DNA of 37,570 bases from the IMG/VR virus record IMGVR_UViG_3300032516_000077, positions 1-37,570 of that record; one strand, written 5' to 3'. A program made the position numbers and the translations under genes. The notes below the pieces were generated by a model, which saw nothing but the letters and a program-made list of their open reading frames with translations, searched no databases and was not told the DNA's origin. The stretch is from a virus. Each line of letters begins with the position of its first letter. Position 1 is the stretch's first letter. Below are positions 4,773-37,570 of the stretch, piece by piece.

Positions 4773-4807
4773 AATGCCCTCCATACAGAATGCTGCGAAG
4801 CGTAAAC

Positions 4808-5401
4808 CTATCGGCGGACGAAAAGATTTTCGGCATAGTCCTGTTCGGTCCTTTCCAGTTTGAATCCCATGCAGTCAAGGGCTCGGATCGCTTTCTCAGC
4901 GTCGACGATTTCGTATGGGACCTCGGGGAGGCGGTGGTGGAACTCGACCGCGATCTGGCGCACCGATTGTGGGATCTCGACGAGCGATTCTATCACCGGG
5001 AACTCAGATCCCTCGATGTCCATTTTCACGATTGACACGTCAGGATACCCGGCGAACAGGTCCGGCAACGATATCGAAATCGACTCATCGCCACCTTGAC
5101 GCCAGACAGAACGGAACGAATGGCAATGCAGAACCTCACCGGTCTTCCCGAACAGTGCGCGCGGCATGAACGTGTAGTTCTCGGGCGTGATGAGTCCAGA
5201 TACGAGACTCCGCTCGATGTGTTCGATTGCGCGTTGTGTAGGATCGAGTCCCACGATGTGACACCCGAACCGACACATCAGTTCCACGTCGAACGTGATG
5301 TCGTTGCCGATGCCCGCGCAGATCGCCGTTGACCCCTGCGGAATCAGCGACGTGTCGATCCAGAATCCACCCCACTCACTACCGAGTCGTTCTATGGACA
5401 T
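4808..5401 (-). CDS. FkbM-family methyltransferase
   Basis: The 197-aa protein has AICAGIGNDITFDVEL as SAM motif I, HIVGLDPTQRAIEHI as motif II, and the FkbM hallmark VSIVKMDIEGSEFPVIESL, followed by AVEFHHRLP. FkbM enzymes O-methylate sugars or polyketides. The ATG at 5401 overlaps the end of the preceding glycosyltransferase gene by ten bases. Its context in the run of glycosyltransferases makes a sugar O-methyltransferase the most likely role, perhaps capping the glycan built by its neighbours. Confidence 0.8.
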   Translation of the reverse strand: MSIERLGSEWGGFWIDTSLIPQGSTAICAGIGNDITFDVELMCRFGCHIVGLDPTQRAIEHIERSLVSGLITPENYTFMPRALFGKTGEVLHCHSFRSVWRQGGDESISISLPDLFAGYPDVSIVKMDIEGSEFPVIESLVEIPQSVRQIAVEFHHRLPEVPYEIVDAEKAIRALDCMGFKLERTEQDYAENLFVRR

Positions 5402-6081
5402 TCGTATTTCGCCTCCCCGGTTGCACTGTAGACCTGTCCGACGAAATCGCGCGGCGTTGGCTTTGGCACGGAAAACGGTCGGCAGTCACCGTATCGCCGG
5501 TAGTCGTCATGGGCGAGGATCTGCGATGGCGGCAGAGCGTCCCAGAGCACGCGCGTTAGGAACGGCTGATCCGACATCCACCCGAAGCGGCCCTCGTATT
5601 TCTGGCGCACGTGGTTCGATCCGTCGCCCATGTAGACCTCGTGTTCCTTGATCGTAAGATCCGACCCAAACGTCTTCGGGAGCAATTGCGGACGACACCC
5701 CCACATGCCGCCCATGATCTCTGCGCCGTGCGCTGGATGGTCGCGCATGACGTGGAGCGCATACGGGCCAGACTCGAACTCGGCCACCGCGTCCCGCTCC
5801 CGCTCGCCGATACGGGAATCCGCGTCGCGAACGCATACAATATCATTGCACCAGGATGTCGCCGGGAGAATCCGCCAGAACAGCCCCGAACTCACAATGA
5901 TAGATTTCTTGATTTGGTACGCCACTCCACTGACACCGAGTTCATACATGGTATCGATCGGACAGTGTATCATCACCGTCCATCCCGGATACCATTTCGC
6001 CGCGAGTTCCACGTTTGCCCGCATGCCATCGAGATATTTCGGGTCGTTGCCCCAGAGCGAGAACGAGAGGATTTTACGCAT
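5392..6081 (-). CDS. GT-A-type glycosyltransferase
   Basis: The 229-aa protein starts MRKILSFSLWGNDPKYLDGM, and the metal/nucleotide-sugar site is DIVCVRDADSRIGERER. HVMRDHPAHGAEIMGGMWG downstream is the pattern in small GT-A transferases whose D-x-D-S-R motif lies mid-protein. There is no signal peptide or membrane segment. The ATG overlaps the end of the upstream gene by eight bases, consistent with coupled translation. Family and fold are inferred from the motifs; donor and acceptor are unknown. Confidence 0.7.
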   Translation of the reverse strand: MRKILSFSLWGNDPKYLDGMRANVELAAKWYPGWTVMIHCPIDTMYELGVSGVAYQIKKSIIVSSGLFWRILPATSWCNDIVCVRDADSRIGERERDAVAEFESGPYALHVMRDHPAHGAEIMGGMWGCRPQLLPKTFGSDLTIKEHEVYMGDGSNHVRQKYEGRFGWMSDQPFLTRVLWDALPPSQILAHDDYRRYGDCRPFSVPKPTPRDFVGQVYSATGEAKYECP

Positions 6082-6778
6082 GACTCATAGCCTCCCGGAC
6101 GCGGGGCGCGTACTCTTCGGCGATCTGAATAGCGCGGCGCATACCAGCGGTGAATGTCGATCGTGTTGCGCGGAGTCGTTCCCGAGTTTCGTCGCCCGCG
6201 CACGAAGAATGCTCGTGCCTGAGTATGACGTCCGGAAGGTATACGTCAGTCCTGGTTTTGCGCGCGAGTTCTGTCCAGACGACGTCGATGAAATCCATCG
6301 GAAATTCTTCCGACATGAACGGCCCGCCGGTCGCCTCGACCATTTTCCGCGTTGTAAACACGTTGACGAAGATTTTTCCATGCTGGATATAGTCGTCGTT
6401 GAGCGACACCACGGCCCAGCCGTTGCGCGCGTTGATTTCTCGAAGAATGCGTTCGTCCCAGCCCGGCGTGGCGAATACCATGTCGTCTCCTACCATGGAG
6501 ACTACAGCGTCGTGCGCGTTTATATGCGCCCGGTAAAGGTCGTTGTACATCTTCCCTAAGTGTGGGGCAGGTTGATTCCAGTATGTCATATAGAGCGGAA
6601 TGCAAAGCGCATGCGTTAAGAGATATGCTCGCGTCTCATAATCATCTTCATCAACCATCAACGTCAAGCACAGCGAATCAACATTCTTCGCCGTAGCCAC
6701 CGCGGACTCGATGAACTTCGCGAGGTGCGGAACGCGCTTCCGAGTTGGCAACACCAGGTTTATTCGGTCGTAGGTCAT
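6074..6778 (-). CDS. GT-A-type glycosyltransferase
   Basis: The 234-aa protein has the GT2-like opening RINLVLPTRKRVPHLAKF. LTLMVDEDDYETRAY comes from the first nucleotide-binding strand, and the metal site is VVSMVGDDMVFATPGWDE. A C-terminal ILRHEHSSCAGDETRERL contains the late catalytic His/Asp area. It is linked to the large GT9-GT4 gene by an ATGA overlap. With its neighbours it provides several successive sugar-transfer steps. The acceptor cannot be read from sequence. Confidence 0.75.
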   Translation of the reverse strand: MTYDRINLVLPTRKRVPHLAKFIESAVATAKNVDSLCLTLMVDEDDYETRAYLLTHALCIPLYMTYWNQPAPHLGKMYNDLYRAHINAHDAVVSMVGDDMVFATPGWDERILREINARNGWAVVSLNDDYIQHGKIFVNVFTTRKMVEATGGPFMSEEFPMDFIDVVWTELARKTRTDVYLPDVILRHEHSSCAGDETRERLRATRSTFTAGMRRAIQIAEEYAPRVREAMSHA

Positions 6779-9051
6779 CGCAGAGCCTCCTCCATAACGT
6801 CAATCCATCGCCGAGGATCGAGATTTGCGCGAGCCCATTCTTTGGCGTTGTATCCCATGTCGTAGCGCAGGTCTTCTTTCCTGTGGAACAGTTTCAGCGC
6901 GTATGCATACTGGTCGTAGTCGCAGGCGTAGAACCCCGTGTCCCCGTACTGGATGCGGTCCCTGGGACCGTCTCGGGGTTCGCCGATCACCGGCAACCCA
7001 GCCGCAAGGGCCTCGCCCATGCCGCGCGGGTACTGGTCCCGCCAGAGGTTCGACGTCCGATACAGGTACACGTGCCCGCTACCGAGAAATTCAGCGACAG
7101 GCTGTTGATCCCATTTCAAGAACACCATGCGCGCATCACCGGAAAAATGCTTCACGAGTTCGGGATGTGCCTCCATGAATCGGAACTCAATCGGAAAACG
7201 CAGGTCCCGGAGTAGCCTGTCGTAGAAATCAACGTCGCGTTCCTTCGCGAAACGCCGCTGCCAGACGTGGACTTTCTCTCCATTCCCAGCAGATTCTTCG
7301 GTCACGTATTTCCGGTAGTCGGGCTTGCAATGCTTCAGCACGACGAGCGGTTCGTCCCCGGCGCGGCGCCGCTGGGTCACCGCATACATACGTTCCAGAT
7401 CGATGGCACCGTGCAGGACCACGAGCCGCGTGTCCTGAAAACCGATTGCATCGCGCTTGAACTCGTCTTTCTTCTCCGTGTTCTGAAACACCACCGCGCG
7501 CAGTTTTCCACTCTCATGCAACCAGCCGCATTTCGGCAATGTGCCATTCGCGAAATTCACGCCGACCACGACGTCGGACGCGGACACGACCAGTGACTCG
7601 GCCTGCTTGCAGAAATCCCATATCTGGTCATTGCCGTAGAACAGGAGCGGGATACCGGGTTTCATCGCTGCGCCAGACTTGAACGACGGCATGAACGTCT
7701 CGCCAGCGAACCGCGCGTCAACACGGTCCCACGGGTGAAAATTCACGACCCATCCGGCGGACTGCAGCACTTGGGCGATTTTCAACGCCGACTGCTCGCC
7801 GCCGCCCGAGGATTGCATTGACGCCAATAGGTTGATTTCGCGCTCGGGCCGTACCACGTCGACACGCGCAGCGCGGGGCCTCTGCGGGGCCGGAGCGGTG
7901 GCGGCAGCTATCGTTGAGTACCGGCCCCCCTCGTAGTACCGCCCAATGGCCCGGATCACGTCGTCGGCGGTGATCATATCCATGCAGCGCTGCACCTGGC
8001 GACCGTCGACAGTGATCGGCTGGTGGCAGAGACGATTGTTCATCTCCGCATCTTTGGAGAGCGGCGACACGCGCGACTGCCAGCAGCCTCCGGAACCCGT
8101 GCACGTCAGCGCGCCGTTGGTATGAAGTATCTGCGAACCCTCGTATGCTGTGAATCCCACGGGCTCCCGACTCCCGTAGATGGCCACAATCGGACGCCTG
8201 CCGGCATGCGTGCCCAGCTTGTGCGGCATCGTGCCTGCCAGATGCATCGGGAACGAGACTCCAGTGACGACGCCCTCGGCATGGAAAAACAGCGGCACGA
8301 GGTCACGCAGTGAGTCCCGTGTTTTGTCCACCCACGATATCACGTTGCGCAATGGGTCGATGAGGTGGTCACTCCGACCGATCACCACGAATTTTATGCG
8401 GCCATCGTAGTGGTCAACGACGTCCTGGAACCGCCGCCAGTCCCAGATCTTGCACGTGCAGTCCCGTTTCCCTCCGGGAGCTACAACCCAATATCGGGAG
8501 ACCCCGTATCCGGTGAGGATTGGATTCTCGGCTCGCTCGGATTCTGACAGGTGCAGGTCGCCCCACTTCCGCAGGTTGTCGCGGGTCACGTTTTTCCAAC
8601 GCTCGCGCCAGACGCGGAAAACGTGGAACGGGTTCACTGGCTCGTGATCCTCGGACCCGGATGACGAACTCCACGACGAGTCGCCGTCCTTATTCTCATC
8701 CGCCGTCCGGCCACCGGCAAACGTCGCGCAGAATTCCCCGATCGACATACCCAGAGATTCGTGCGCGTCCGCAATCGATATCATATTGAGGAGGAACGCC
8801 ATTGTGAAATGCACGTTGCCCTCGTTGCATCCCTGGATCACGGGATACCCGACGCGGTAGAACTCGACGCCCGGCCCCCCGCGTTTCACGGTCGCGTCGA
8901 TGTGCGGATTATTGAGGAATAGCTCGGGGAATTTCGTCTCGACGTTCAGCGCTACCGTTGGGAACAGCGCGTGAAAATCACGAATGCCAGCCGACAGCAT
9001 GAGAACGTCACCAGGCGCGCGCCCGTGAGCGAAAACAATCTTCCGAGACAT
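6775..9051 (-). CDS. Two-domain glycosyltransferase: GT9 (heptosyltransferase-like) fused to GT4
   Basis: The 758-aa protein splits into two GT-B modules. Residues 1 to about 370 begin with a GT9-like FAHGRAPGDVLMLSAGIRDF and contain VVAPGGKRDCTCKIWDWRRF, VIGRSDHLIDPL and VTGVSFPMHLAGTMPHK...PIVAIYG, as in ADP-heptose transferases. From about residue 400, EINLLASMQSSGGGEQSALK opens a GT4-like module ending LYRTSNLWRDQYPRGMGEALAAGLPVIG, the donor-binding E-x7-E region. A short Ser/Asp-rich stretch (8640-8700) interrupts the first module, echoing the Ser-rich tracts on the virion proteins. Two fused transferases suggest consecutive additions to one glycan. The ATG at 9051 has only a weak purine-rich RBS. 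Confidence 0.75.
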   Translation of the reverse strand: MSRKIVFAHGRAPGDVLMLSAGIRDFHALFPTVALNVETKFPELFLNNPHIDATVKRGGPGVEFYRVGYPVIQGCNEGNVHFTMAFLLNMISIADAHESLGMSIGEFCATFAGGRTADENKDGDSSWSSSSGSEDHEPVNPFHVFRVWRERWKNVTRDNLRKWGDLHLSESERAENPILTGYGVSRYWVVAPGGKRDCTCKIWDWRRFQDVVDHYDGRIKFVVIGRSDHLIDPLRNVISWVDKTRDSLRDLVPLFFHAEGVVTGVSFPMHLAGTMPHKLGTHAGRRPIVAIYGSREPVGFTAYEGSQILHTNGALTCTGSGGCWQSRVSPLSKDAEMNNRLCHQPITVDGRQVQRCMDMITADDVIRAIGRYYEGGRYSTIAAATAPAPQRPRAARVDVVRPEREINLLASMQSSGGGEQSALKIAQVLQSAGWVVNFHPWDRVDARFAGETFMPSFKSGAAMKPGIPLLFYGNDQIWDFCKQAESLVVSASDVVVGVNFANGTLPKCGWLHESGKLRAVVFQNTEKKDEFKRDAIGFQDTRLVVLHGAIDLERMYAVTQRRRAGDEPLVVLKHCKPDYRKYVTEESAGNGEKVHVWQRRFAKERDVDFYDRLLRDLRFPIEFRFMEAHPELVKHFSGDARMVFLKWDQQPVAEFLGSGHVYLYRTSNLWRDQYPRGMGEALAAGLPVIGEPRDGPRDRIQYGDTGFYACDYDQYAYALKLFHRKEDLRYDMGYNAKEWARANLDPRRWIDVMEEALR

Positions 9052-27499: not shown

Positions 27500-29674
27500 T
27501 TACACGCCGATGTTCTTGTACCATCCGCGGAAGTCGACAAATGCGACTTCGAAGAAGTGCTCGATGTCGAAGATCAGACCCTTCACTTCACCAGCCCCCC
27601 CCATCTTGCTCTGTGTCTGGGGAGCCTCGCGGCCTGCCAGGGAGAGAGTGAGCGCGTGGTCGATTGCCATCGGGTCCTGCACGAGCAGATAGCCGTTCGT
27701 GGTCGGGATCAGGTCGTCGACCAGCGATTCGATGACCGGCTCCAGACCCATACTCCCACCCTGTCGGAACAGGTTGTCGGTCATCGGGTTCACGTTTGCC
27801 GGAGGCGTGGTGAACGGCACATACACGTTTGAGGTGAACTGACGCACAGTCCACTCGCTCCGAGCACCGGTCACGATCAGCTTCGGCGGCATGTTCAGGC
27901 GGGTCGTGCGGGACTGTCCGCCGTCCGGTGCCAGCCGAGGGAAGCGACGCATCGCAACAAACGCCGCGGTGAGGGTCGTCTGTGAGATCGCCGCGCCAGC
28001 AGCGGCCAGGTTGCCGTCGGTGGCGTTGAACAGCGCACGGCCTGTCTCGTTGAGCGTCGGACCGTTGCCGGTGAGCAGTGTCCGCCAGAAACGGTCGTTG
28101 ATCTCGCGAGCGATCGCGCGCCCGAACTTGTAGGGCAGGTCCGTGAGCTGGTCGAGACGGTCGTTGATCGCCATCTCCTCGGTATAGGAGAACGCGCGGC
28201 CCCATTTCTTGAGCTGAGCGTGTTCTGTCTTATCCGAGATCACGCCGAGCTTGGGCGGTTGGCCTTCGGGAATCTCAAGCACGTCGGGCGACCCGCTTGT
28301 CTTGTACATGTCGGCCTGCTTCAGGTCCGACAGTGTGATATTCCGAGAAACCCGCTGATAGGTCGTGGTCTCCTCGCCGTAGCCTTTCAACACGATCGAA
28401 TTCGCTGCCGTCGAGAGCACGGAGTTCAGGTCGTTCGTGTTCATTCCCATGCCCATCTTCGGTCGGATGCCCGCCACTTCGTAACCCAGCAATGCCTTGA
28501 ACAGGCCACCGACGTCGCAGGACTCCGCATTCGCAACGCCGGCCCTTTTGCCGAGGAAGCGCAGCATGCCCTGGAAACCGATAATCCCCGCCATCTCACT
28601 TGATCGGAACTCCTGAACCTTCTTCGGGTCGTTCTCTTTCCCGCCGCGAACGAGAATCGAGTTCACCAGCCCTCCACGGACCTTGTCGGTCTCGTCGACG
28701 CCAACACTCACGCCAACACCCGTCATGCCTGCGCGGATCTTCTCCAGCACCTTCGACTGTGCGGCCTCGATCGTCACGGTCGGCGCGATCAGTTCGTTGA
28801 CGAACGTCTCGTCGCATCCCGCGAGGCCGGCGCACATGGCGCGGATTGCGGTGATTCGCTTGTGTTCGTCGTTTCGCGCCTGGGCCTGGGCCTCGGCGAT
28901 TTCCTTCGCGCGCGCCTCCGCGGTCACGCCTTCGAGCTGTGCCTTCGTCTTGATGACCTTTCCGGTCTCATCGACGAGGTTTCCGTCTTTGTCAAACACC
29001 ATACAGGACTCCTTCGTTATGGGTGGAACTGTTTTTGGTTCTGGTCTGTTTTCAGGTTTCACCAAGGCCAACACCTTGACTTTGCATTCCGCAACCCTCG
29101 CCCGCGCTGAATTCTTCGGGTCCTCCTTCTCTGTTGGGTTCAGGATCTCGTCCGCAAATCCGATTTCTTTGGCCTCGGCTGCACTCATCCAGGTCTCCGC
29201 ATCCATGATCGCCGACATCTGTTCACGAGTTGTATTCTTCGCATGCCTCATGTACGCACTAAGAATCCCCTCCTTCAGTTTGTCAAGGACATCGGCGTAC
29301 TTCCGCAGTGTCTCCGCATCCCCGCCGATCCATATCAGCGGGTTGTGAATCATGTACATCGCGTTCTCTGGCATCGCGATTTTCCCGGGATCAGCGGTCA
29401 TGGCCAACACCGACGCCATTGACGCCGCGAGACTGTCGATAGTCACGCGAATCGGCACTCCATAGGACAGTAACTCGTTGTAAATCGCGTTACCCTCGAA
29501 AACCTCACCACCCGGACTGTTGATTCTCAAGTGAATTCCGTTCGCCTTCGGCTCTTCCTTGAGCTTCGAGATGAAGTCTTTCGCCGAGATCCCCCACGAC
29601 CCGATTTCGTCGTGCACGAGTATTTCGAGTTCTCCGCTTGACTCTTTCTTCATCTGAAACTTCAGTGTCGGCAT
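27500..29674 (-). CDS. Fused ClpP-like prohead protease and major capsid protein
   Basis: The 724-aa chain starts with an S14/ClpP-type protease: INSPGG at 51-56 (oxyanion region), SLAASMASVLA with the nucleophile Ser85, MIHNP with His110, and a C-terminal AAEAKEIGFADEI. A charged, Ala/Glu/Lys-rich helical part (about 230-290) looks like a scaffold or delta domain. From about 400 to the end is the capsid domain, with SDLKQADMYKTSGSPDVLEIPEGQ, FGRAIAREINDRFWRTLLTGNGP and a C-terminal FEVAFVDFRGWYKNIGV. Fusion of protease and capsid in one ORF is known in some phages; self-cleavage during maturation is expected. No internal stop or frameshift is seen. Confidence 0.85.
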   Translation of the reverse strand: MPTLKFQMKKESSGELEILVHDEIGSWGISAKDFISKLKEEPKANGIHLRINSPGGEVFEGNAIYNELLSYGVPIRVTIDSLAASMASVLAMTADPGKIAMPENAMYMIHNPLIWIGGDAETLRKYADVLDKLKEGILSAYMRHAKNTTREQMSAIMDAETWMSAAEAKEIGFADEILNPTEKEDPKNSARARVAECKVKVLALVKPENRPEPKTVPPITKESCMVFDKDGNLVDETGKVIKTKAQLEGVTAEARAKEIAEAQAQARNDEHKRITAIRAMCAGLAGCDETFVNELIAPTVTIEAAQSKVLEKIRAGMTGVGVSVGVDETDKVRGGLVNSILVRGGKENDPKKVQEFRSSEMAGIIGFQGMLRFLGKRAGVANAESCDVGGLFKALLGYEVAGIRPKMGMGMNTNDLNSVLSTAANSIVLKGYGEETTTYQRVSRNITLSDLKQADMYKTSGSPDVLEIPEGQPPKLGVISDKTEHAQLKKWGRAFSYTEEMAINDRLDQLTDLPYKFGRAIAREINDRFWRTLLTGNGPTLNETGRALFNATDGNLAAAGAAISQTTLTAAFVAMRRFPRLAPDGGQSRTTRLNMPPKLIVTGARSEWTVRQFTSNVYVPFTTPPANVNPMTDNLFRQGGSMGLEPVIESLVDDLIPTTNGYLLVQDPMAIDHALTLSLAGREAPQTQSKMGGAGEVKGLIFDIEHFFEVAFVDFRGWYKNIGV

Positions 29675-29743: not shown

Positions 29744-31300
29744 TCATATCGGCTTGATTTCCATCAGCGCACGCGCGGCTGCTTCATCTGCGCCTTCGTC
29801 GGTCTGATCCTGAGTATCCGCTGCGGCCTGCGCCGCTTCAGCTTCCAACTGTAAGGGCATTTTTAGCCCGAGTCCGTCCATGAACGTCTGCTCAATAGCA
29901 ATCTGTCTTAGCTCAGAACGCCAGTCCTTGCCCCTTGACGAGTAGTGATCCGAGAGCGTTGTCATTTTATTCGCGTAGAGGTCAATCGTTGCCTTGGCGT
30001 CTTTCGTGGGGTCTACCCAATCCCATCCCGGCATCTGCCAATGGCACTGGTTGTACGTCCACGGGTCCGCGAGGTAGTCCGCATACGAGAGCGGGGCCAT
30101 CTTGCCAGACAGGAACATCCATTTCACGAAGTTCTCATAGTCAACCTGGCAAACCTCTTTCGAGAACCACTTCTGTATCATCTGGAAAATGCGCCGGTCT
30201 TCGAGAATATTCGCGCGCGAGGCCGCGAAATTCATGCCCTGCAGGTCCTTCGTGAGAATCTGATACGAGAGACCGGTTCCAATAGCGATCGAGCGTTGGC
30301 ACAACCTGGTCAGCGGGTCGAACACGTCTCCGGTCGGGGTCCCTGCACTGACCACCTCCGGCTTCGTATTAGAGTACATGATCCGCGCAGGCTCCCACTG
30401 AATTTTGTTGTTCTGCATGCCCTTCGCGAGTGCAGGGAGATCGTTTTTGTTCACCCAGAGCGCGATCATCGCCCGAATCCGGGATGCGGTGAACTCGTCT
30501 TCCATCAGCGATCCCAGATCCCACAGCGAGGTCAGAACAGGTGCCTTCCAGGGCACTCCGATATACTGTTCTGGTCGGCGCCGACGGAAGCGGCAACTGA
30601 AATTCTCGGCGGAGATCGGTTCCTTGATCCCCTCGATCCAGTACCGAATCGGTGACCCGTATTCGTCAAGATCGATTCCGTACTGCGTCTGCTTCATCGG
30701 CTCATTCTGGCCCGTGGCTTTTACGAACCAATCCTTGGAGAAATCGAGGCGGTCGGGCTCGATAATCTGATAGGACACAGGGAGGAACGCATTTCGGTGT
30801 GACGGAACCGCGTTCACGCACACTGATCCGCTGTTTATCAGCGTCTTCAGCATCAGTGACTGGCACTCGTAGTACGTTGACTTCCGAGTGCGGTCCCACT
30901 GATCGTTGGCGCGCTTCCATCCCTCGGCGAGCTTCGTGTTCACGTCCTCAGCCAGGGTCCCCGGCGCCGACTCCACGGTTGGCTGCGGCCTTATTCCGTT
31001 ATGGACAATATTACTCTGGAATACGTTGTCGATGTTCTCAGAAAGGCCGTTATTATCCGAGGACTCGCGCGAACGCGCGATCATGCGTTTCAGGTCCTTG
31101 GATATATTATCGAACGGACTCCCGTTTGCCGTCGGCCAGTCGTTGCGAGTGCGAGACGTCGATGCCGCATCGTAGTACATTGACATCCGACGATCAATTT
31201 CATCGAAAATCCGACGCGCACGCGGCAGGTGATCGAGGTTTGCGCCCACGCGCGCGCCCACGTTAAGTAGAAAATTCCCGATGCGCTCAGTGATTTTCAT
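29744..31300 (-). CDS. Portal protein (lambda family)
   Basis: The 518-aa protein begins MKITERIGNFLLNVGARVG and has lambda-type portal features: YDAASTSRTRNDW near the N-terminus, IEPDRLDFSKDWFV, GIDLDEYGSPIRYWIEG, VPWKAPVLTSLWDLGSL and YQILTKDLQGMNFAASRANILEDRRIF. It lies between the gpW-like gene and the protease-capsid fusion. Length matches gpB relatives. It forms the dodecameric ring through which terminase packs DNA. The start overlaps the preceding gene by four bases (ATGA). Confidence 0.9.
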   Translation of the reverse strand: MKITERIGNFLLNVGARVGANLDHLPRARRIFDEIDRRMSMYYDAASTSRTRNDWPTANGSPFDNISKDLKRMIARSRESSDNNGLSENIDNVFQSNIVHNGIRPQPTVESAPGTLAEDVNTKLAEGWKRANDQWDRTRKSTYYECQSLMLKTLINSGSVCVNAVPSHRNAFLPVSYQIIEPDRLDFSKDWFVKATGQNEPMKQTQYGIDLDEYGSPIRYWIEGIKEPISAENFSCRFRRRRPEQYIGVPWKAPVLTSLWDLGSLMEDEFTASRIRAMIALWVNKNDLPALAKGMQNNKIQWEPARIMYSNTKPEVVSAGTPTGDVFDPLTRLCQRSIAIGTGLSYQILTKDLQGMNFAASRANILEDRRIFQMIQKWFSKEVCQVDYENFVKWMFLSGKMAPLSYADYLADPWTYNQCHWQMPGWDWVDPTKDAKATIDLYANKMTTLSDHYSSRGKDWRSELRQIAIEQTFMDGLGLKMPLQLEAEAAQAAADTQDQTDEGADEAAARALMEIKPI

Positions 31301-31633: not shown

Positions 31634-32218
31634 TCAAATCTGATTGATGAACAACCCACCCATTTCTCCATTCCGCCGAGTTCGCCCGCTGATATCCGAC
31701 TTAATACCCGTGTTTTGAAAAACTAAGTTTCTTGACGCACAATAAATATGTAGTTCTTTTCGCGCAGATATAAAAGCATCATCCAAATTTCTTGTTCCAC
31801 CCTCCAAAACCTTCAATACTTTACTTATCGAATTTTTGTTTACAATGTAGAAATGCGTGCAAAACGTCGGCCCTAAAAGTACCCAAGAATTTATTCTTAC
31901 CGGTGAATGCAAGTGATCGCAATAGTAGAAAAAACAATCCCAATCATCTATTTTTTCAAGAGACTGGACGTATTCAAAACTATTCGTATAGTCATTTGAT
32001 ATGATTATGTCATCCTCGATTATCAACGGACTGACATTTTCGGAAAGACTTTTTTTTAAGACACCTATGTGTGACAACCGACAACCATCTTTTCCAATTT
32101 TCGCAGTGTTTGCCGAATATCGTTCGAATTCAATCCCCCACTTAGCGAGTTCTAATCGCGTCAATTCTAATCGATCTTTTCTATAGTCAAGATTTATCAA
32201 AAATGCTTTGTCCCACAT
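31634..32218 (-). CDS. GT25 (LpsA-like) glycosyltransferase, AT-rich moron
   Basis: The 194-aa protein shows GT25 motifs: AFLINLDYRKDRLE at the start, GCRLSHIGVLKKSL, and the acidic site LIIEDDIII. GT25 enzymes transfer galactose or glucose to LPS or, in other branches, to hydroxylysine. The gene is visibly AT-rich compared with both flanking genes, has its own GGAGG RBS, and sits between terL and the gpW-like gene, where lambda-type genomes have none. A hairpin follows it. This looks like a horizontally acquired moron modifying host or virion glycans. Confidence 0.8.
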   Translation of the reverse strand: MWDKAFLINLDYRKDRLELTRLELAKWGIEFERYSANTAKIGKDGCRLSHIGVLKKSLSENVSPLIIEDDIIISNDYTNSFEYVQSLEKIDDWDCFFYYCDHLHSPVRINSWVLLGPTFCTHFYIVNKNSISKVLKVLEGGTRNLDDAFISARKELHIYCASRNLVFQNTGIKSDISGRTRRNGEMGGLFINQI

Positions 32219-32226
32219 ACGTCCTC

Positions 32227-34185
32227 CTATACACGTCTCCCCCTGCGACCCTGGAAATAACTGGACCGATCGTCTTCTGAATCAGTCTCCGGTTCCGCAC
32301 TCTCAGTCAACGACTCGGGCCGCTTCGTCAGCGTTGCCACCGTTGACGGATCGAACAGCAGCGCCTCCAGACCTTGCGCCTTGCATGCCGCGTGCACGTA
32401 GTTCTCGCATGACCGGTAGTGATTCGGCTCGATCTTCACGTACACGAGTTTTTTGTTCCCGTGGATGTCCACCTTCGGCTCGATGTACTCGTTTCGCACC
32501 TGGTCGAGGTAGTCCTGAGTCACATCCGCCGGCAAGTGGAACCGAGCGCCCGCGATCAGTGCCGTTACCTCGCGTGAGAGTATCATCGACTGCCCCATCC
32601 ACCATATTCCATTCGACGACTGTTCGACAACTGGCTTTTTGAAATCAACGCGGGCCATTCCGATGTATGGTTTTATCTGTGGTATGTGGTTGCAGATGTA
32701 ATCGACGTCCTCGGGCCGATGTCCACCGCGGTCCATGAACCCGAACCAGATATCGAGTTCAGTTCCGTCCTTGCGCAGGTATGGTGTAGCAAACACGGAC
32801 CCGCGGAATCTCTCGTATGCCAACTGGTGCGGGTCCTTGCCGTCCTCGGTTTCATCCTTCGCGCACGCGGCAAATCCGGACCGCGCAAGGTATTTCTCCA
32901 TGCCGCGCCCGAACCCAGACACTACCCAATAAAATCCATCATCCTGGCAGTCGGAGCCGATAATCAGCGTCAGCACTTCATTCGGAATTTCCGCCGCCGC
33001 ATACTGACGATACGCCATTTTTTTCTTCGCGAGAAAATCCTCAGATATCTGTATTGTCTCTTCCTGCCAGAATTCCCCCATGTCCTCATTTATGAACGTT
33101 TGCACGGCTTCACTTCCCTTCTTCTGCGCGGCAAACCACCGAGACAGGGCCTCCGCAAACGTAAACGAGTAATCGACGAACCGCGTATACTGAAAAGACT
33201 TTGCTTTCACTGGTTTTCGGGCCGTGACTTTGCCGTCTTCGATTTTCTCACCATCCGCCACCCATACCACACGCGCGCACATCTCGATACGGTGTTTCTC
33301 CTCAATTGTTTTTTTGCACGACACACATTCGTATCGAGCCGCGTTTTCTTTCAAAATACGCCCCGCGTCGTGGTCCATTTCGCCCTTCGAATTCGCGATT
33401 TCCTTCACTTGACGTATAGAAAGCACCTGAAAACGCCCACAGTGAGGGCATGGATGGTATGCTTTTAGGTTCAAAACACCCGATTGCTGCATCTCTTCGT
33501 GCAGGCAATCACCATAAAACAGCGGCGACGACTCCATAATTGACTTATGGCGACCAATAATTCGGTATGCTTCTTGTCTTCTTTTCAGTGATTCGACCGG
33601 GTTCCAGCCCCGTTTTTTGCGGTATTTTGACACTTCCGATGCGTAAATCAACCCCGAGGACCACGTCGCGATGTCTGATGGGACCTCTGCCGAACCAATG
33701 CGGAGAAACATGTGCGACAACCGCATTTTCTTCTGTGTCAAGTCGTCGTCGTTGCCCGACCAGTATTTTTTGATCGTCGGTATCTCTTTTATCATCGGGC
33801 GAATACGATCCGCAAACATATCCGACGCGGTTTCCTTCTTCGCATAGATCACGATACCATTCATCGGCAGATTATCAATGCACCATGCGACCTGCACCTC
33901 TGCAATCAGTGATTTTCCTACCTGGGTAGGCGCGCACTGGATGACCGTATCGCATTCCGCAATCGCATCGAGTATTTCTTCCTGCCACTTGTACGGCTGG
34001 AATGCCCCAGGGCGCGCGTATGCCGTTGTCAGCCGATAGTGCTGACGTGCCCATTCTGTCGGGCGGGGTTGGTCACGTATCCGCGTGAGTTCGATCTCTA
34101 TCGAACGCAACACTGACGCGTGTTCCACGTAGCAAAAAGCGAAGGACGGTTTCCCGTCCCCCGCCACTATCATCGGCACGCTCAC
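32227..34185 (-). CDS. Terminase large subunit (gpA family)
   Basis: The 652-aa protein has QPYKWQEEILDAI (Q motif area), the Walker A loop APTQVGKS (85-92), an acidic Walker-B-like segment in GLIYASEVSKYRKK, and a zinc-like pair set CPHCG...CVSCKK typical of gpA-type terminases. The nuclease half has LIIGSDCQDDGFYWVV and FGFMDRGGHRPEDVDYIC. It cuts concatemers and drives DNA into the prohead. The GTG start overlaps the preceding stop (TAGTG). The C-terminus ends in a short acidic and then Arg-rich tail. Confidence 0.92.
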   Translation of the reverse strand: MSVPMIVAGDGKPSFAFCYVEHASVLRSIEIELTRIRDQPRPTEWARQHYRLTTAYARPGAFQPYKWQEEILDAIAECDTVIQCAPTQVGKSLIAEVQVAWCIDNLPMNGIVIYAKKETASDMFADRIRPMIKEIPTIKKYWSGNDDDLTQKKMRLSHMFLRIGSAEVPSDIATWSSGLIYASEVSKYRKKRGWNPVESLKRRQEAYRIIGRHKSIMESSPLFYGDCLHEEMQQSGVLNLKAYHPCPHCGRFQVLSIRQVKEIANSKGEMDHDAGRILKENAARYECVSCKKTIEEKHRIEMCARVVWVADGEKIEDGKVTARKPVKAKSFQYTRFVDYSFTFAEALSRWFAAQKKGSEAVQTFINEDMGEFWQEETIQISEDFLAKKKMAYRQYAAAEIPNEVLTLIIGSDCQDDGFYWVVSGFGRGMEKYLARSGFAACAKDETEDGKDPHQLAYERFRGSVFATPYLRKDGTELDIWFGFMDRGGHRPEDVDYICNHIPQIKPYIGMARVDFKKPVVEQSSNGIWWMGQSMILSREVTALIAGARFHLPADVTQDYLDQVRNEYIEPKVDIHGNKKLVYVKIEPNHYRSCENYVHAACKAQGLEALLFDPSTVATLTKRPESLTESAEPETDSEDDRSSYFQGRRGRRV

Positions 34186-34373
34186 TACTTCGGAGCCCGA
34201 GTCTTAGGAACCTCAACCGGACCCGTCACCGCCGCGCGCAGACTCGCCTTGATCGCCTGCACCGTTGCCGACGGATCGTTCTCGATCGCCGATGCAAGAA
34301 TCTCCGCCTCTGCAACGCCCATCGTTGCCTTGATCATGTCACCAACCGGGCCAACCACTTTCTTCGAACGCAT
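34185..34373 (-). CDS. Small protein coupled to TerL (possible minimal TerS or accessory)
   Basis: From the ATG at 34373, with a very strong RBS (GAGGAGGTAGTG), this gives MRSKKVVGPVGDMIKATMGV... (62 aa), a basic helical protein. It overlaps terL by one base (TAGTG). Small terminase subunits usually sit here, but they are longer and carry a helix-turn-helix that is not evident, so the role is open. A longer frame to 34430 would start inside the last attC and lacks this RBS. This is the first gene after the cassette array. Confidence 0.55.
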   Translation of the reverse strand: MRSKKVVGPVGDMIKATMGVAEAEILASAIENDPSATVQAIKASLRAAVTGPVEVPKTRAPK

Positions 34374-34415: not shown

Positions 34416-34424
34416 GTTTATTTC

Positions 34425-34565
34425 GGCCAACGGTTACGCAACGGCAGAATGTTTCGCCCGCTCTCTCGCGCATATTCGGCCGCCACGGAATGCACCTTGA
34501 ACGCACGCGATGCCATACCCTTTGCAGCCCTGACATGGCGGAATTTCTGCCTTGCGTTCTTGCAC
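34425..34565 (-). repeat. attC site J (last of array)
   Basis: R'' is GTGCAAG (34559-34565), with G in place of the final C. One spacer base follows, then L'' ACGCAAGGCAGAA; L' at 34436-34450 pairs with it, leaving one unpaired base. R' is GTTGGCC (34425-34431). The middle is about 95 bp and codes the C-terminus of the cassette ORF. Confidence 0.75.
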
Positions 34566-34688
34566 GGCGGAGCGAACTGTTTTGCGGCGCTCAACTTCTG
34601 CAACAATGATTCGCATCGCGTCACCATGGTTACCAGTATAAGACCCCATAAACTCGCGCACAGTTGAAATTGCTTCTTCGAGATTCAT
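34434..34688 (-). CDS. Cassette J protein, Cys-motif (84 aa)
   Basis: MNLEEAISTVREFMGSYTGN... has an N-terminal helical half and then CQGCKGYGIACVQGAF, similar to one half of a DnaJ-type CxxCxGxG zinc repeat. Its last about 40 codons read through the attC palindrome and the TAA lies inside the L'/spacer junction. Leader: starts at the cassette boundary with TTGCACGCAATTTTGC and has AAGGAGCAACA before the ATG. No known family; a small regulatory or nucleic-acid-binding role would be a guess. Confidence 0.6.
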   Translation of the reverse strand: MNLEEAISTVREFMGSYTGNHGDAMRIIVAEVERRKTVRSAVQERKAEIPPCQGCKGYGIACVQGAFRGGRICARERAKHSAVA

Positions 34689-34720
34689 TGTTGCTCCTTA
34701 CATGGTCGCCGCAAAATTGC

Positions 34721-34804
34721 GTGCAACGACGGTTCGGCCAACGGGTGCTGGCTGGTACGCTATTCACTTCGCTTCCCCGGCTGGCATCCCTTGGCCTGTT
34801 GCAC
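34721..34804 (-). repeat. attC site I
   Basis: R'' GTGCAAC (34798-34804), one spacer base, L'' GGCCAAGGGATGC (34784-34796). L' (34736-34748) pairs with one extra C and one unpaired A. The spacer is eight instead of five bases. R' GTTGCAC is at 34721-34727. R'' matches the start of cassette J rather than I, an exception to the usual pattern. Confidence 0.8.
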
Positions 34805-34948
34805 GCTTTTGTCAACCGCTCCACACGTTGCGACGCGTTGTTGATACTCGATAATGCACTCCTTTAAGAGCACTGACACAGTAGACAACGCTTTTTCCGC
34901 CTCGGATAAACGAGCTTTGGTATACACGAGCTTTTCTAATACTGTCAT
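34760..34948 (-). CDS. Cassette I protein, coiled coil (62 aa)
   Basis: MTVLEKLVYTKARLSEAEKALSTV... is a continuous amphipathic helix followed by a polar C-terminus (RVATCGAVDKSVQQAKGCQPGKRSE) encoded by sequence shared with other cassettes and by the attC itself. The RBS is GAAAGGGCTGCGC before the ATG. The unrelated N-terminal half and the repeated C-terminal half suggest the true functional part is the first about 40 residues. Function unknown. Confidence 0.6.
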   Translation of the reverse strand: MTVLEKLVYTKARLSEAEKALSTVSVLLKECIIEYQQRVATCGAVDKSVQQAKGCQPGKRSE

Positions 34949-34982
34949 GCGCAGCCCTTTCTTTTGGTCGGTTGACTATGGC

Positions 34983-35047
34983 GCATAACGCTCAGGCCGA
35001 CTCGCCCGAAGTGCTGTACTCAGCATTTTGGGCTTGGCCTATTGGTG
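34983..35047 (-). repeat. attC site H
   Basis: R'' CACCAAT (35041-35047, final C changed to T), one spacer, L'' GGCCAAGCCC (35030-35039), inner hairpin TGCTG...CAGCA, L' at 34995-35007, spacer TGAGC, R' GTTATGC (34983-34989). R'' is complementary to the cassette H start (GTTGGTGG). Confidence 0.75.
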
Positions 35048-35214
35048 GATGTAAACCGCGCCACAAAAGATTTCTGTCGGGCGCTTAACCAATTAGAACG
35101 ATCAATCCACCATTTATGATAGCTGTTATAATCACACGGATGCTTGATAGGAGCCAAAAGATACACGAAATAAATCAAAATTATTAGCAGACAGAAAAAA
35201 TCGTGAATACTCAT
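35020..35214 (-). CDS. Cassette H protein, N-terminal membrane segment (64 aa)
   Basis: MSIHDFFCLLIILIYFVYLLAPI is a membrane helix or uncleaved signal anchor, followed by a polar, Trp/Tyr/Lys-rich part (HKWWIDRSNWL...). It is the only membrane protein among the cassettes. The leader shares GAAATTATAGG, GGGCGCA and GAAAGGAA with the leader of cassette E although the proteins are unrelated. The final residues are encoded by attC. Function unknown. Confidence 0.6.
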   Translation of the reverse strand: MSIHDFFCLLIILIYFVYLLAPIKHPCDYNSYHKWWIDRSNWLSARQKSFVARFTSTNRPSPKC

Positions 35215-35265
35215 ACGTTCCTTTCAAAATGCGCCCGACCTATAATTTCGAGCGCTGGTTATTTC

Positions 35266-35389
35266 CACCAACGCCCTGGCCAACTGCGCTGCCTAAGTTG
35301 CCATATAGCAATCATGACAAATATTCATTACAGCCGGTTGAGTCTTACAACATTCGCACATGAGAGGTGGCGTAGTTGGCATGTTGCGC
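35266..35389 (-). repeat. attC site G
   Basis: R'' GCGCAAC (35383-35389) is complementary over ten bases to the start of cassette G (GTTGCGCGCT). Two spacer bases, L'' GCCAACTACGC; L' GCGCAGTTGGCC (35278-35289), spacer AGGGC, R' GTTGGTG (35266-35272). One mismatch/bulge in the arm. Confidence 0.85.
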
Positions 35390-35511
35390 GCTGGTTTGTC
35401 AACCTCCGCACGTTTGGCCGCGTTCCACCCAAACTCCGCACTACGTATATCTACCTGATAATCGATAGGCCCCTGAGCATCCCACCATTCTCGAAATGTC
35501 TTCGCGGCCAT
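35293..35511 (-). CDS. Cassette G protein, C-terminal zinc-like motif (72 aa)
   Basis: From the ATG at 35511 (TTGGAGGTGAT as RBS) the protein is MAAKTFREWWDAQGPIDYQV... The FREWW...AxxAFGxxWNAA-like start (SAEFGWNAAKRAEV) resembles small phage proteins of unknown role. The C-terminal MCECCKTQPAVMNICHDCYM has two Cys pairs suited to bind zinc, and is encoded inside the attC middle region. A longer frame to 35760 overlaps cassette F and is rejected. Confidence 0.6.
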   Translation of the reverse strand: MAAKTFREWWDAQGPIDYQVDIRSAEFGWNAAKRAEVDKPARNMPTTPPLMCECCKTQPAVMNICHDCYMAT

Positions 35512-35537
35512 ATCACCTCCAATGTTGACAAAATAGC

Positions 35538-35678
35538 GCGCAACGTTCTCACAAACATGCGCTGTCTCCGCCCAACGGTGTATGCATACCAACGAACGAA
35601 CGATGACGCGCGACCTCTTTGCGCAGCTCCGCGACCTCTTCGCGCAGGGCGGAGATTGCGTCATTTTGTGTGTTGGCC
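35538..35678 (-). repeat. attC site F (best-paired)
   Basis: R'' GGCCAAC (35672-35678) complements the cassette F start GTTGGCC. One spacer base, then L'' CACAAAATGACGC pairs with L' GCGCATGTTTGTG (35550-35562), leaving one extrahelical base on each arm. A further 9-bp stem, TCTCCGCCC/GGGCGGAGA, follows. Spacer AGAAC, R' GTTGCGC (35538-35544). Confidence 0.88.
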
Positions 35679-35815
35679 GATGCGGAGGGAGCTTCCGCAA
35701 GTATTGGCGCAACATATTCACCCGTACCGTTACAGGCACCACAGATGATAGAATCTTCATCTATATCGAAACCGCCACGACCTTTACAAGAAGGACAATC
35801 TTTTTGTTGCGCCAT
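35549..35815 (-). CDS. Cassette F protein, DnaJ-type zinc motif (88 aa)
   Basis: MAQQKDCPSCKGRGGFDIDEDSIICGACNGTGEY... contains two CxxCxGxG repeats 16 residues apart, a single DnaJ-like zinc knuckle pair. A coiled coil follows (AISALREEVAELRKEVARH). The fold suggests a zinc-stabilised hairpin with a dimerising helix. RBS ACTGGAGGTAATAG. The end of the ORF runs through attC to a TGA at the L'/spacer junction. Such small zinc proteins are frequent in phage genomes, but their roles are mostly unknown. Confidence 0.65.
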   Translation of the reverse strand: MAQQKDCPSCKGRGGFDIDEDSIICGACNGTGEYVAPILAEAPSASANTQNDAISALREEVAELRKEVARHRSFVGMHTPLGGDSACL

Positions 35816-35843
35816 CTATTACCTCCAGTGCGACCGTAGTTTC

Positions 35844-35904
35844 GGCCAACGTTTGCCGCATAGCCGAAGTTACGCTTCGGAATTTTGGATTGCGGCTGTT
35901 GTAC
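35844..35904 (-). repeat. attC site E
   Basis: R'' GTACAAC (35898-35904), one spacer base, L'' GCCGCA, inner perfect hairpin CCGAAG-CGTAA-CTTCGG, L' TGCGGC, spacer AAAC, R' GTTGGCC (35844-35850). It is compact at 61 bp. R'' differs in one base from the complement of the cassette E start. Confidence 0.78.
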
Positions 35905-36139
35905 GAAGTTGCTCGCCTTCCTTAGTGTCCAGCGGGCGCAATTCTTTTTTGATGGCATCGAAAGCGGCAAGTAGCTTGTCGATGTTTGCCCCCTCGAAAT
36001 GACATACCCCAGATCCAGAGTCGCTATACAAATGAATACCAATAAAGTCCTTATCGACAAGCGGCTCCCCACCACGGTCACAGTATATTTCAACACCCAT
36101 TCCTTCGCTTCCGTTATCATCAATATCAAAACTTAACAT
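35870..36139 (-). CDS. Cassette E protein, acidic (89 aa)
   Basis: MLSFDIDDNGSEGMGVEIYC... is an acidic protein with alternating beta-like strands (VEIYCDRGGEPLVD, FIGIHLYSDSGSGVCHF) and a helix (IDKLLAAFDAIKKEL). The RBS is GAAAGGAATCGTT. Two Cys are isolated, not paired. No family is recognised. Its last codons reach into the attC inner hairpin. Leader shared with cassette H. Confidence 0.6.
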   Translation of the reverse strand: MLSFDIDDNGSEGMGVEIYCDRGGEPLVDKDFIGIHLYSDSGSGVCHFEGANIDKLLAAFDAIKKELRPLDTKEGEQLRTTAAIQNSEA

Positions 36140-36191
36140 AACGATTCCTTTCTTTGCGCCCGCCTATAATTTCCAGAAGGCGAGCAATTTT

Positions 36192-36289
36192 GTGCAACGG
36201 ACCGGCCAAGTGCGGAGTTCGCGCACTACAAAATTCCAACTCCATATTCTGAATATTTGGCGCGAATTTCACCACTTGGCGTGTTATGC
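36192..36289 (-). repeat. attC site D
   Basis: R'' GCATAAC (36283-36289) is complementary over nine bases to the cassette D start GTTATGCGC. L'' CGCCAAGTG pairs with L' CACTTGGCC (36204-36212) with one unpaired base. Spacer GGTCC, R' GTTGCAC (36192-36198). A second inverted repeat GTGCGGAGT/ACTCCGCAC flanks it. Confidence 0.85.
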
Positions 36290-36546
36290 GCTTTTGCCGG
36301 GGACTCCGCACGTTTGCGGCGCATCCTTGCCGGTTCAGAGTGACACAGCTCGTCCGGCCACCCAAGCGCATTCTTCACAAAGTTACCACCAGCAGCCGCT
36401 TGTTCACAGTCGGTAAGCGATTTCCCGTAAGTGACAATGTGCGTCCGATTGTTCGCTTTATCCCACGCAACAACAATGACCTGATTCAAACTATACTTAG
36501 CAGATAGGCGCTTGGCCTCACTGAATGGCACACGTTTACAATTCAT
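36226..36546 (-). CDS. Cassette D hypothetical protein (106 aa)
   Basis: MNCKRVPFSEAKRLSAKYSL... has a folded-looking N-terminal two thirds (VIVVAWDKANNRTHIVTYGKSLTDCEQAAAGGNFVKNALGW), with a beta-hairpin then a helix, similar in pattern to small host-derived phage orphan proteins. The last about 40 residues are encoded by the repeated pre-attC segment and attC. There is no Cys-pair motif. RBS is AGAAAGGCAGCG. Confidence 0.6.
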   Translation of the reverse strand: MNCKRVPFSEAKRLSAKYSLNQVIVVAWDKANNRTHIVTYGKSLTDCEQAAAGGNFVKNALGWPDELCHSEPARMRRKRAESPAKAHNTPSGEIRAKYSEYGVGIL

Positions 36547-36584
36547 AGAGCGCTGCCTTTCTTACATGGTTCCCCGGCAATTGC

Positions 36585-36726
36585 GCATAACGTTTACGCA
36601 ACGGGCGACAGTTTGCCACTACACGACGGACAGTACACAATAGTATCGAGTACCCACGAGTGCTTGAAAGCAAGCCAACCCTCACGATGTTCACAGTGGC
36701 AAATTTTGTCCCTTGCGGTGTTGTGA
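36585..36726 (-). repeat. attC site C
   Basis: R'' TCACAAC (36720-36726), one spacer base, L'' CCGCAAGGGACAAAATTTGCC. L' GGCAAACTGTCGCCCGTTGCG pairs with several bulges. Spacer TAAAC, R' GTTATGC (36585-36591). Total 142 bp. Confidence 0.75.
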
Positions 36727-36839
36727 GCCGTTTGTGCGGACACAGCGGCCTTTACTGTTTGCCATGCCTCACGAATGAGAACAGTATCTGCAAACGCATC
36801 TACACTATCTAAAAGAGCAACTGCTTCTTGTAAATCCAT
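36594..36839 (-). CDS. Cassette C protein, Cys-rich C-terminus (81 aa)
   Basis: MDLQEAVALLDSVDAFADTV... is a helical N-terminal part, then KICHCEHREGWLAF and IVYCPSCSGKL, giving C-x-C and C-x2-C pairs 29 residues apart, a possible zinc site. The leader is identical to that of cassette B over its first 26 bases; RBS is ATAGGAGTTTGCC. The stop lies just before L'/R'. Function unknown. Confidence 0.6.
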   Translation of the reverse strand: MDLQEAVALLDSVDAFADTVLIREAWQTVKAAVSAQTAHNTARDKICHCEHREGWLAFKHSWVLDTIVYCPSCSGKLSPVA

Positions 36840-36874
36840 GGCAAACTCCTATAAAATGGTTCGTTTACAATTGC

Positions 36875-37023
36875 GTGCAACGTTCTCAGGCACCCGCCTG
36901 TAGTTTGCCCGTTCCATCGCAAGGGGCACACTGTACCTGAATAGGATTTCCATCATGACCCCGACACGGATACGAACCGTTGCCGGAGCAAGTAGGGCAA
37001 ATTGCAGGCTGCCTGTGTTGCTC
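36875..37023 (-). repeat. attC site B
   Basis: R'' GAGCAAC (37017-37023), one spacer base, then long arms 36995-37015 and 36887-36910. These pair along about 21 bp with a three-base bulge (CAGGCA-GCCTGCAATTTGCC against GGCAAACTACAGGC-GGG-TGCCTG). Spacer AGAAC, R' GTTGCAC (36875-36881). Confidence 0.85.
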
Positions 37024-37203
37024 GCTGTTGTAAACGACTCCACACGTTGAGGCCGCCTTAACCGTGAGAAACTGCGCAAACTCCGCTGCCCGATTAGCAA
37101 CTTCAAAAGGCTCCGATAGCTTCCCAGAAATACGCGCACCCAGAACATCCGCAATAGCGTAGGCCAGCATCGCGGCAATCTTCATATCGCGTACATCGTC
37201 CAT
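36886..37203 (-). CDS. Cassette B protein with DnaJ-type zinc repeats (105 aa)
   Basis: The ATG at 37203 (ATAGGAGGCCGCTA upstream) gives MDDVRDMKIAAMLAYAIADV..., a helical N-terminal part. The C-terminus then has CPTCSGNG and CAPCDGTG, two CxxCxGxG elements about 22 residues apart as in DnaJ zinc fingers. The zinc region lies inside the long attC middle, so this attC doubles as coding sequence for it. A frame to 37275 starts in the previous attC and is less likely. Confidence 0.65.
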   Translation of the reverse strand: MDDVRDMKIAAMLAYAIADVLGARISGKLSEPFEVANRAAEFAQFLTVKAASTCGVVYNSEQHRQPAICPTCSGNGSYPCRGHDGNPIQVQCAPCDGTGKLQAGA

Positions 37204-37239
37204 TAGCGGCCTCCTATAACATGGTTCGTTTACAATTGC

Positions 37240-37297
37240 GTGCAACGCCCTGGCAAACTTGCGGCGTGTACTCATGCCGTCAATTTGCCTGTTGTAT
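37240..37297 (-). repeat. attC site A (compact)
   Basis: R'' ATACAAC (37291-37297) complements the cassette A start GTTGTATGC over nine bases. One spacer base, L'' GGCAAATTG pairs with L' CAAGTTTGCC, leaving one extrahelical G. A CGGC/GCCG stem continues inside. Spacer AGGGC, R' GTTGCAC (37240-37246). Confidence 0.88.
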
Positions 37298-37457
37298 GCT
37301 GTTCGACCACGTTCAACACGATGGACGCGCCATTCTTGTCAAACTTATGTGGACAAATAGATTCGCATTCGCAAACCCCAAAATACTCGACACATGAACA
37401 GCCCTCCGAGCAAGCCGGGAAACCTACAGCGGATCTTTCTTTGGCGCGGTCTATCAT
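37272..37457 (-). CDS. Cassette A protein, Cys-rich (61 aa)
   Basis: From the ATG at 37457 (CGGAG seven bases before it) the protein is MIDRAKERSAVGFPACSEGCSCVEYFGVCECESICPH.... It has seven Cys within about 20 residues, consistent with a metal-bound knot. The frame to 37484 would start inside the cassette boundary and lacks an RBS. The short C-terminus (VVEQHTTGKLTA) is encoded by attC. No family recognised. Confidence 0.6.
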   Translation of the reverse strand: MIDRAKERSAVGFPACSEGCSCVEYFGVCECESICPHKFDKNGASIVLNVVEQHTTGKLTA

Positions 37458-37478
37458 ATCGCTCCGTGGTCGAATGGC

Positions 37479-37529
37479 ATACAACGCCCTGCTAAACAGC
37501 CGACAGTTGCCGCATCTTTGCTGTTAAAG
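37479..37529 (-). repeat. Probable attC of the truncated eleventh cassette
   Basis: R' GTTGTAT (37479-37485) and spacer AGGGC (37486-37490) are clear. L' CTGTTTAGC pairs partly with GCAAA (37517-37521) after a candidate R'' CTTTAAC (37523-37529). The arms are weaker than in the other sites. Confidence 0.5.
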
Positions 37530-37570
37530 AGAAAACTTTATCGCCTCTGGGAATACGGCCTAAACACGAC
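37492..37570 (-). CDS. 3' end of a cassette ORF cut by the window edge
   Basis: The open frame entering from the right edge ends ...GDKVFSLTAKMRQLSAV with a TAG just before the attC spacer, the same arrangement as the complete cassettes. It shows that the array continues beyond the window. Only about 26 residues are visible, so nothing can be said of its function. Confidence 0.45.
   Translation of the reverse strand, partial: SCLGRIPRGDKVFSLTAKMRQLSAV

Follow-up and report, generated by a model that had tools for sequence, protein, structure and literature searches.

Can a phage hold its accessory genes as integron-type cassettes, each with a recombination site of its own, directly beside the genes that package its DNA? 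The question is raised by a 37,570-base stretch of viral DNA, the entire IMG/VR virus record IMGVR_UViG_3300032516_000077 (classed as linear), which we refer to as the window. An array of small genes and attC-like sites occupies 34.42-37.53 kb of its minus strand, in the same orientation as terL, the gene for the terminase large subunit, and the terL-side end of the array lies directly before the gene coupled to terL. We think it very probable that this array is a phage-borne, integron-type platform that lacks a recognisable integrase and is built from cassettes with a distinct attC subtype.

An array of attC sites directly upstream of the packaging genes

Eight strong and three degenerate attC sites, each with the order R''-L''-loop-L'-R', alternate in the array with small co-oriented open reading frames (ORFs; Table 1). 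An initial annotation, made from the letters alone, had counted eleven attC-like sites and described this layout, spacers of one and five bases, unpaired bases in the arms and one small co-oriented ORF per unit; all of these are seen in the sequence, the ORFs lying on the minus strand. Its estimate of about 50 bp between the last site and the ribosome-binding site (RBS) of the terL-coupled gene was also close, since we measured about 45 bp from the last R' (34424) to the RBS of that gene, which overlaps terL.

Sites were called, and bulges counted, with our own scripts. On the sense strand of the 3.1-kb array the detector gave 8 sites scoring at least 10, against a mean of 0.31 and a maximum of 2 in 200 dinucleotide shuffles. 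An arm-pair model that is independent of the loop and was trained solely on the sites of other phages recovered 7 array sites at 19.9-47.2 bits, where about 0.01 sites of at least 16 bits are expected per 3.1 kb, and it found no site of at least 9 bits on the array strand in the rest of the window. This score was used in place of R2, a covariance model built from phage sites other than those of the window, because R2 misses sites with long loops. Folding of seven window attC sites as single-stranded DNA gave z-scores from -1.0 to -4.7, and a scan with Rfam returned no match. The array is not due to chance.

It contains at least two inverted-repeat R''/L''/L'/R' sites that have AAC/GTT cores and fold into hairpins, and the R' and R'' ends of a cassette are complementary to each other; no intI was detected next to the array, whose upstream end is outside the window. 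The array is of integron type, without intI (a cluster of attC sites lacking an integron integrase, CALIN), and represents a new attC variant.

The phage sites are mirrored relative to ordinary attC

We compared the phage sites with ordinary attC sites and found that the spacers are mostly 1-2 and 4-5 nt in the former and mostly 3/3 in the latter. Where a bulge was scored, 21 of 22 phage sites have the extrahelical base on the R'-L' arm, whereas 15 of 16 ordinary sites have it on the R''-L'' arm. The proposed stems with their R'-L' bulge are supported because their covariation, bulge included, reaches 0.394, exceeding both shuffled (0.146 +/- 0.018) and slid (at most 0.167) controls.

The two ends of one integron cassette match through the R box. 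In the phage cassettes this match between the two ends continues for about 10 bp past a 2-nt gap, as in GTTGTATGC-CA-TTCGACCACG, and such an outer stem joins a cassette to its own partner end in 18/30 phage cassettes, compared with 2.9% of mismatched pairs and 0/17 ordinary cassettes. Since the arms adjoin across attC in a circular cassette only, the outer stem would fit a circular intermediate, although it could alternatively form in linear RNA around the ORF.

Cassettes are gained, lost and reordered between near-identical phages

The array-bearing phages are represented throughout by metagenome contigs (assemblies, not reads), and contigs with a TerL identical to that of a 45.6-kb phage contig, G005, occur in several samples. 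Two contigs, L062 and L064, have packaging genes 96.6-99.9% identical to those of G005 and arrays that differ from it. Positions 4073-5849 of G005 are absent from both (two samples; junction 4073|5849), and positions 1648-2200 are absent from L062 (junction 1648|2200). In L064, a cassette (G005 1035-1306, 100% identical) and a block (1300-1651, 99.7%) stand in the opposite order, with other cassettes inserted. Every one of these junctions falls at the GTT of R'. Furthermore, L064 and L087 (which is one contig with L062) match at 99.7% identity along 2,397 bp and then split exactly at TAG|TTG, the core of an attI-like site described below, after which their first cassettes differ.

Cassettes are also common to more distant phages. 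L001, a relative of the window phage, has two cassettes in common with G005, in swapped order and with edges at R', and one 286-bp cassette in common with the 167.7-kb contig G114 (99.65% identity, GTT at both edges), which in L001 sits at the attI-like site. The junctions listed from these comparisons, 11 in all, fall without exception on the G|TT core of R' or the attI-like site, the chance of falling within 4 nt of an R' core being about 0.017 each. In the relatives, cassettes are thus gained, lost and moved to new positions, and the crossover lies at the G|TT of R'. Over a longer time scale R'' has been a breakpoint as well: the window cassette whose ORF spans 35293-35511 is 78% identical in DNA to its G114 homologue from R' to R'' and is then followed by a different attC, and a pair of G005 cassettes has the reverse pattern. 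At 2102-2234 and 4224-4354 of G005 (L047), two cassettes whose upstream ORFs differ have nearly identical attC sites encoding a cysteine-rich C-terminus, as though the attC were a swappable protein module.

A conserved attI-like site and gene precede the arrays of six contigs

Six contigs (G005, L001, L062, L064, G114 and G115) have a putative attI-like site, CTACRGTTTGA-N16-TAG|TTG, ahead of phage-type arrays, and at the same base of this site they carry different first cassettes; other matches to the pattern are not followed by phage-type arrays. A gene of about 80 codons ends at the site in 6/6 contigs, and a search of the viral collection with this gene returns exactly those six. The L064 copy of its product matched nothing in Pfam, neither the L064 nor the L001 copy matched PHROGs, and the predicted structure consists of two helices at low confidence (mean pLDDT, the predicted local distance difference test score, 66).

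The window TerL is below 60% identity to every record among 50,697 phage genomes, the best-ranked matches reaching 23-24%, so the lineage has no close cultured relative there. Among contigs, TerL identity to the window is 73% in L001, 70% in L003 and 41% in G005. L001 and L003 have homologous TerS proteins (phrog_57 for L001). In L003, which has neither attC nor array, terS, the small gene and terL are contiguous, and in L001 the order is terS, the gene of about 80 codons, the attI-like site, three cassettes with strong attC, and terL. The same array-then-terL order in L001 as in the window tells to some extent against a misassembly at 34.4 kb. G005 carries about ten attC directly upstream of terS and terL, G002 has its array just upstream of a terminase of a different family (phrog_3717), and in G001, G006, G008 and G009 arrays lie elsewhere in the genome. 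The suggestion that a phage swaps small accessory genes beside its packaging genes gains from these comparisons, the relatives holding different cassettes at the same place; the other option raised with it, a prophage inside an integron, is not supported, as the arrays of the relatives lie within the phage genome, either separating terS from terL or a short way upstream of terS, and a phage integrase was not detected.

Two further observations concern the distribution of arrays. G008 (L053, L055; 49.7 kb) has two separate arrays, at 3.5-9.1 kb and 43-46.8 kb, and a 5.6-kb viral contig (L034, GC content 0.29) has an attC-like array of another sequence type.

A model for cassette exchange and its alternatives

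Combining these results, we propose a mechanism in which a single cassette would consist of a 5' untranslated region, an ORF and an attC hairpin overlapping that ORF. The array, which in relatives appears to start at the conserved attI-like site behind the conserved gene of about 80 codons, would change as site-specific recombination at the G|TT of the R' box removes or adds single cassettes, with new cassettes entering at the attI-like site or between cassettes. Cassettes would travel as circles, the substrate would be a folded single strand, and an IntI-type tyrosine recombinase, most likely encoded by the host, would act in trans. By sequence, the sites, covarying hairpins and crossover points are present, near-identical phages differ by cassette gain, loss and reordering, and unrelated phages have cassettes in common; the simplest assumption is that the host supplies an IntI in trans.

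Several results weigh against this reading. The first concern the enzyme: PF00589 (tyrosine recombinase) gave nothing above the cut-off in any phage record searched, the window and the apparently complete G008 (76-bp terminal repeat) included, and intI (TIGR02249) gave nothing in the five records tried, again including the window. A host integron did not come to light either: a 23-bp cassette-start motif had 7 chance hits and no attC arrays among 85k bacterial and archaeal species genomes; a run of R2 on the 104 genomes reached through those chance hits also gave nothing and is not informative. Next, R1, a narrow covariance model trained on the ordinary attC sites of Vibrio, Shewanella, class 1 integrons and TJE1, which yields 30 matches in those same records, detects none of the window's sites, and R2 recovers none of the ordinary ones; both models fail because spacers and bulge arm differ between the two kinds of site. 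In experiments on IntI1, shifting the extrahelical bases to the R'-L' arm switches the recombined strand and moves the crossover to R'', and bottom-strand recombination by the class 1 integrase drops about 10^5-fold (PMC2727003). The natural phage crossovers occur at R' despite an extrahelical base on the R'-L' arm, and the phage sites therefore break the rule known for IntI1; the older breakpoints at R'' are a further difficulty. Finally, the attI-like end of the window array would lie beyond the contig, as the array runs off before such a site and the record offers no sequence past 37,570, and turnover has been demonstrated in relatives, not between copies of the window phage. The initial description of these units as integron cassettes recognised by IntI thus holds for the integron-type array and not for the enzyme, given that no intI or tyrosine recombinase appears in any phage record searched and the sites are not ordinary attC. 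The attC covariance check that it suggested likewise succeeded with the phage-trained R2, which matches two window sites, and failed with R1.

The alternative that survives best, though we regard it as rather unlikely, is that the phages encode or co-opt a recombinase of their own, of an unrecognised kind and with a mirrored site preference, perhaps with the protein of about 80 residues as an accessory factor; the phages would then possess an integron system independent of any host IntI. The reversed bulge arm and the outer stem both speak for it, as do the absence, beyond chance, of the cassette-start motif from cellular genomes, the constant presence of the conserved gene beside the attI-like site, and the retention of that site in otherwise unrelated phages. 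Against it stand the lack of a tyrosine recombinase domain in all phage records searched, the lack of a serine recombinase (PF00239, nothing above the cut-off in the seven phage records tried) and the low-confidence prediction of the small protein as just two helices. A related and also tentative proposal, to which we give a little more credence, is a phage-specific integron lineage, in which unrelated phages of about 45-168 kb would draw on a common pool of cassettes, have in common an attI-like platform with a conserved gene and mirrored attC with outer stems, and be served by an undiscovered recombinase of reversed site polarity.

We consider it improbable that homologous or microhomology recombination by phage enzymes shuffles genes at short repeats and that the hairpins are mere terminators or repeats. 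G005 does encode a RecE-like exonuclease, only a few identical core bases are common at junctions, and two different methyltransferase cassettes have longer common 5' and 3' ends; yet all 11 junctions map to the G|TT core of R' or the attI-like site though longer repeats exist elsewhere, the stems covary, and pairing between the two ends of one cassette greatly exceeds that between ends of different cassettes. Least credible of all is the chance capture of a piece of bacterial integron by one phage, now static: temperate phages are known to carry CALINs captured from the chromosomes of their hosts (PMC9892861) and no integrase is in the record, but the same attC subtype is present in many phage contigs of different lineages, strain-level turnover and cassettes common to different phages contradict a static piece, and for the phage group this explanation is already disfavoured.

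Cassette contents and neighbouring genes

The cassette ORFs of the window read into their own attC, so that 38-93% of each attC is coding. Their products are small, several are cysteine-rich, and none received a confident family assignment; one cassette ORF used as a query against viral contigs found no match. The cassettes of G005 and L064 include N6/N4, C5, MT-A70 and Dam-type methyltransferases; in G005, three cassettes encode methyltransferases. A likely benefit of the array would be a fast-changing set of accessory genes, among which the methyltransferases of the relatives could guard against host restriction.

The packaging and head genes of the window are all on the minus strand (Table 1). 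The late region includes several glycosyltransferase-like genes (1178-9051 and 31634-32218); one of them, just downstream of terL, apparently has no counterpart in a 93%-identical relative (L004), and G001 and G002, which also carry arrays, have genes similar to the window's (ISFSLWGNDPKY...). At 35609-35647, in the loop of the cassette 6 attC, the two copies of a near-perfect 18-bp direct repeat (CGCGACCTCTTTGCGCAG) stand 21 bp apart.

Table 1. Features of the window: attC sites, cassette ORFs and packaging or head genes
Feature	Position	Strand	Evidence or remark
attC, weak/degenerate, contig end	37478..37529	-	sequence
Cassette ORF 1	37272..37457	-	
attC	37239..37298	-	R2 (E 0.005) and arm-pair; DNA fold z -4.7
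Cassette ORF 2	36886..37203	-	CxxCxGxG motifs
attC	36874..37024	-	detector; arm-pair 24.2 bits
Cassette ORF 3	36594..36839	-	AWQTVKA...C-rich family, also in phages L001 and G001
attC	36584..36727	-	arm common to cassettes of phage G005; arm-pair 41.5 bits
Cassette ORF 4	36226..36546	-	
attC	36191..36290	-	arm-pair 22.7 bits
Cassette ORF 5	35870..36139	-	
attC, strongest	35843..35905	-	R2 39.6 bits, E 1.5e-8; arm-pair 47.2 bits
Cassette ORF 6	35549..35815	-	CxxC/zinc-ribbon-like
attC	35537..35679	-	detector; arm-pair 19.9 bits
Cassette ORF 7	35293..35511	-	homologue in 167.7-kb phage contig G114
attC	35265..35390	-	detector; arm-pair 21.0 bits
Cassette ORF 8	35020..35214	-	
attC, R'' degenerate (AAT)	34982..35048	-	sequence
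Cassette ORF 9	34760..34948	-	
attC	34720..34805	-	detector; DNA fold z -3.4
Cassette ORF 10	34434..34688	-	84 aa
Last attC, R'' degenerate	34424..34564	-	sequence: GCAAGGCAGAA / TTCTGCC-G-TTGC arms
Small conserved gene, directly upstream of terL and downstream of array	34185..34373	-	44% identity to same-position L003 gene
terL, terminase large subunit	32227..34185	-	phrog_15, E 4e-70
Portal	29744-31300	-	phrog_21
Protease/head gene	27500-29674	-	phrog_133

Relation to known cassette systems

The arrays offer a base-resolution view of natural phage populations in which genes are gained, lost and reordered one cassette at a time, and in which a small phage and one of 168 kb exchange cassettes. 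Phages would accordingly both store and carry integron cassettes, in a modular accessory locus for methyltransferases and small zinc-ribbon-like proteins that is found beside the packaging genes in several lineages. The mirrored attC also makes testable which strand and which box an integrase chooses if the other arm bears the extrahelical base.

The initial annotation did not know cassette arrays in integral contact with virion genes as an established arrangement, but phage CALINs had already been reported by Qi et al. in 2023, who found 17 among 10,705 phage genomes and showed that IntI1 recombined five of six tested phage attC with attI1 (PMC9892861). In the literature searched, which excluded bioRxiv preprints and included few subscription papers, we found neither this attC architecture nor such an attI-like platform of phages described, nor any strain-level turnover of cassettes in phages. 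These three features appear to be new, while phage CALINs themselves are already known.

The CALINs of TJE1, P12002L and PH101 (virulent; PMC9892861) resemble the arrays described here in being integrase-less rows of attC with small ORFs and methyltransferase cassettes. Those shown by Qi et al. have few attC (3 in TJE1), whereas the present arrays reach about 11 and differ in architecture; the TJE1 site that we tested is ordinary, with 3/3 spacers and the extrahelical base on the R''-L'' arm. Unlike those CALINs, the relatives of the window phage have an attI-like site with its conserved gene, a terminase-adjacent position in several lineages, and turnover between strains. With the sedentary chromosomal integrons of Vibrio and Shewanella and with class 1 integrons, the phage arrays have in common the R''/L''/L'/R' hairpins with AAC/GTT cores, cassettes that mostly hold a single ORF, a crossover point at the G|TT of R' and an order that changes between strains. 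They depart from these integrons in that no intI was found, the spacers are 1-2/4-5 rather than 3/3, the extrahelical base is on the opposite arm, an outer stem joins the cassette ends, and ORFs read into attC. Phage hotspots for morons and other accessory genes next to terminase genes also hold variable small genes at a fixed place. Such hotspots have no recombination site for each gene, whereas in the phage arrays an attC accompanies every gene and the junctions are exact.

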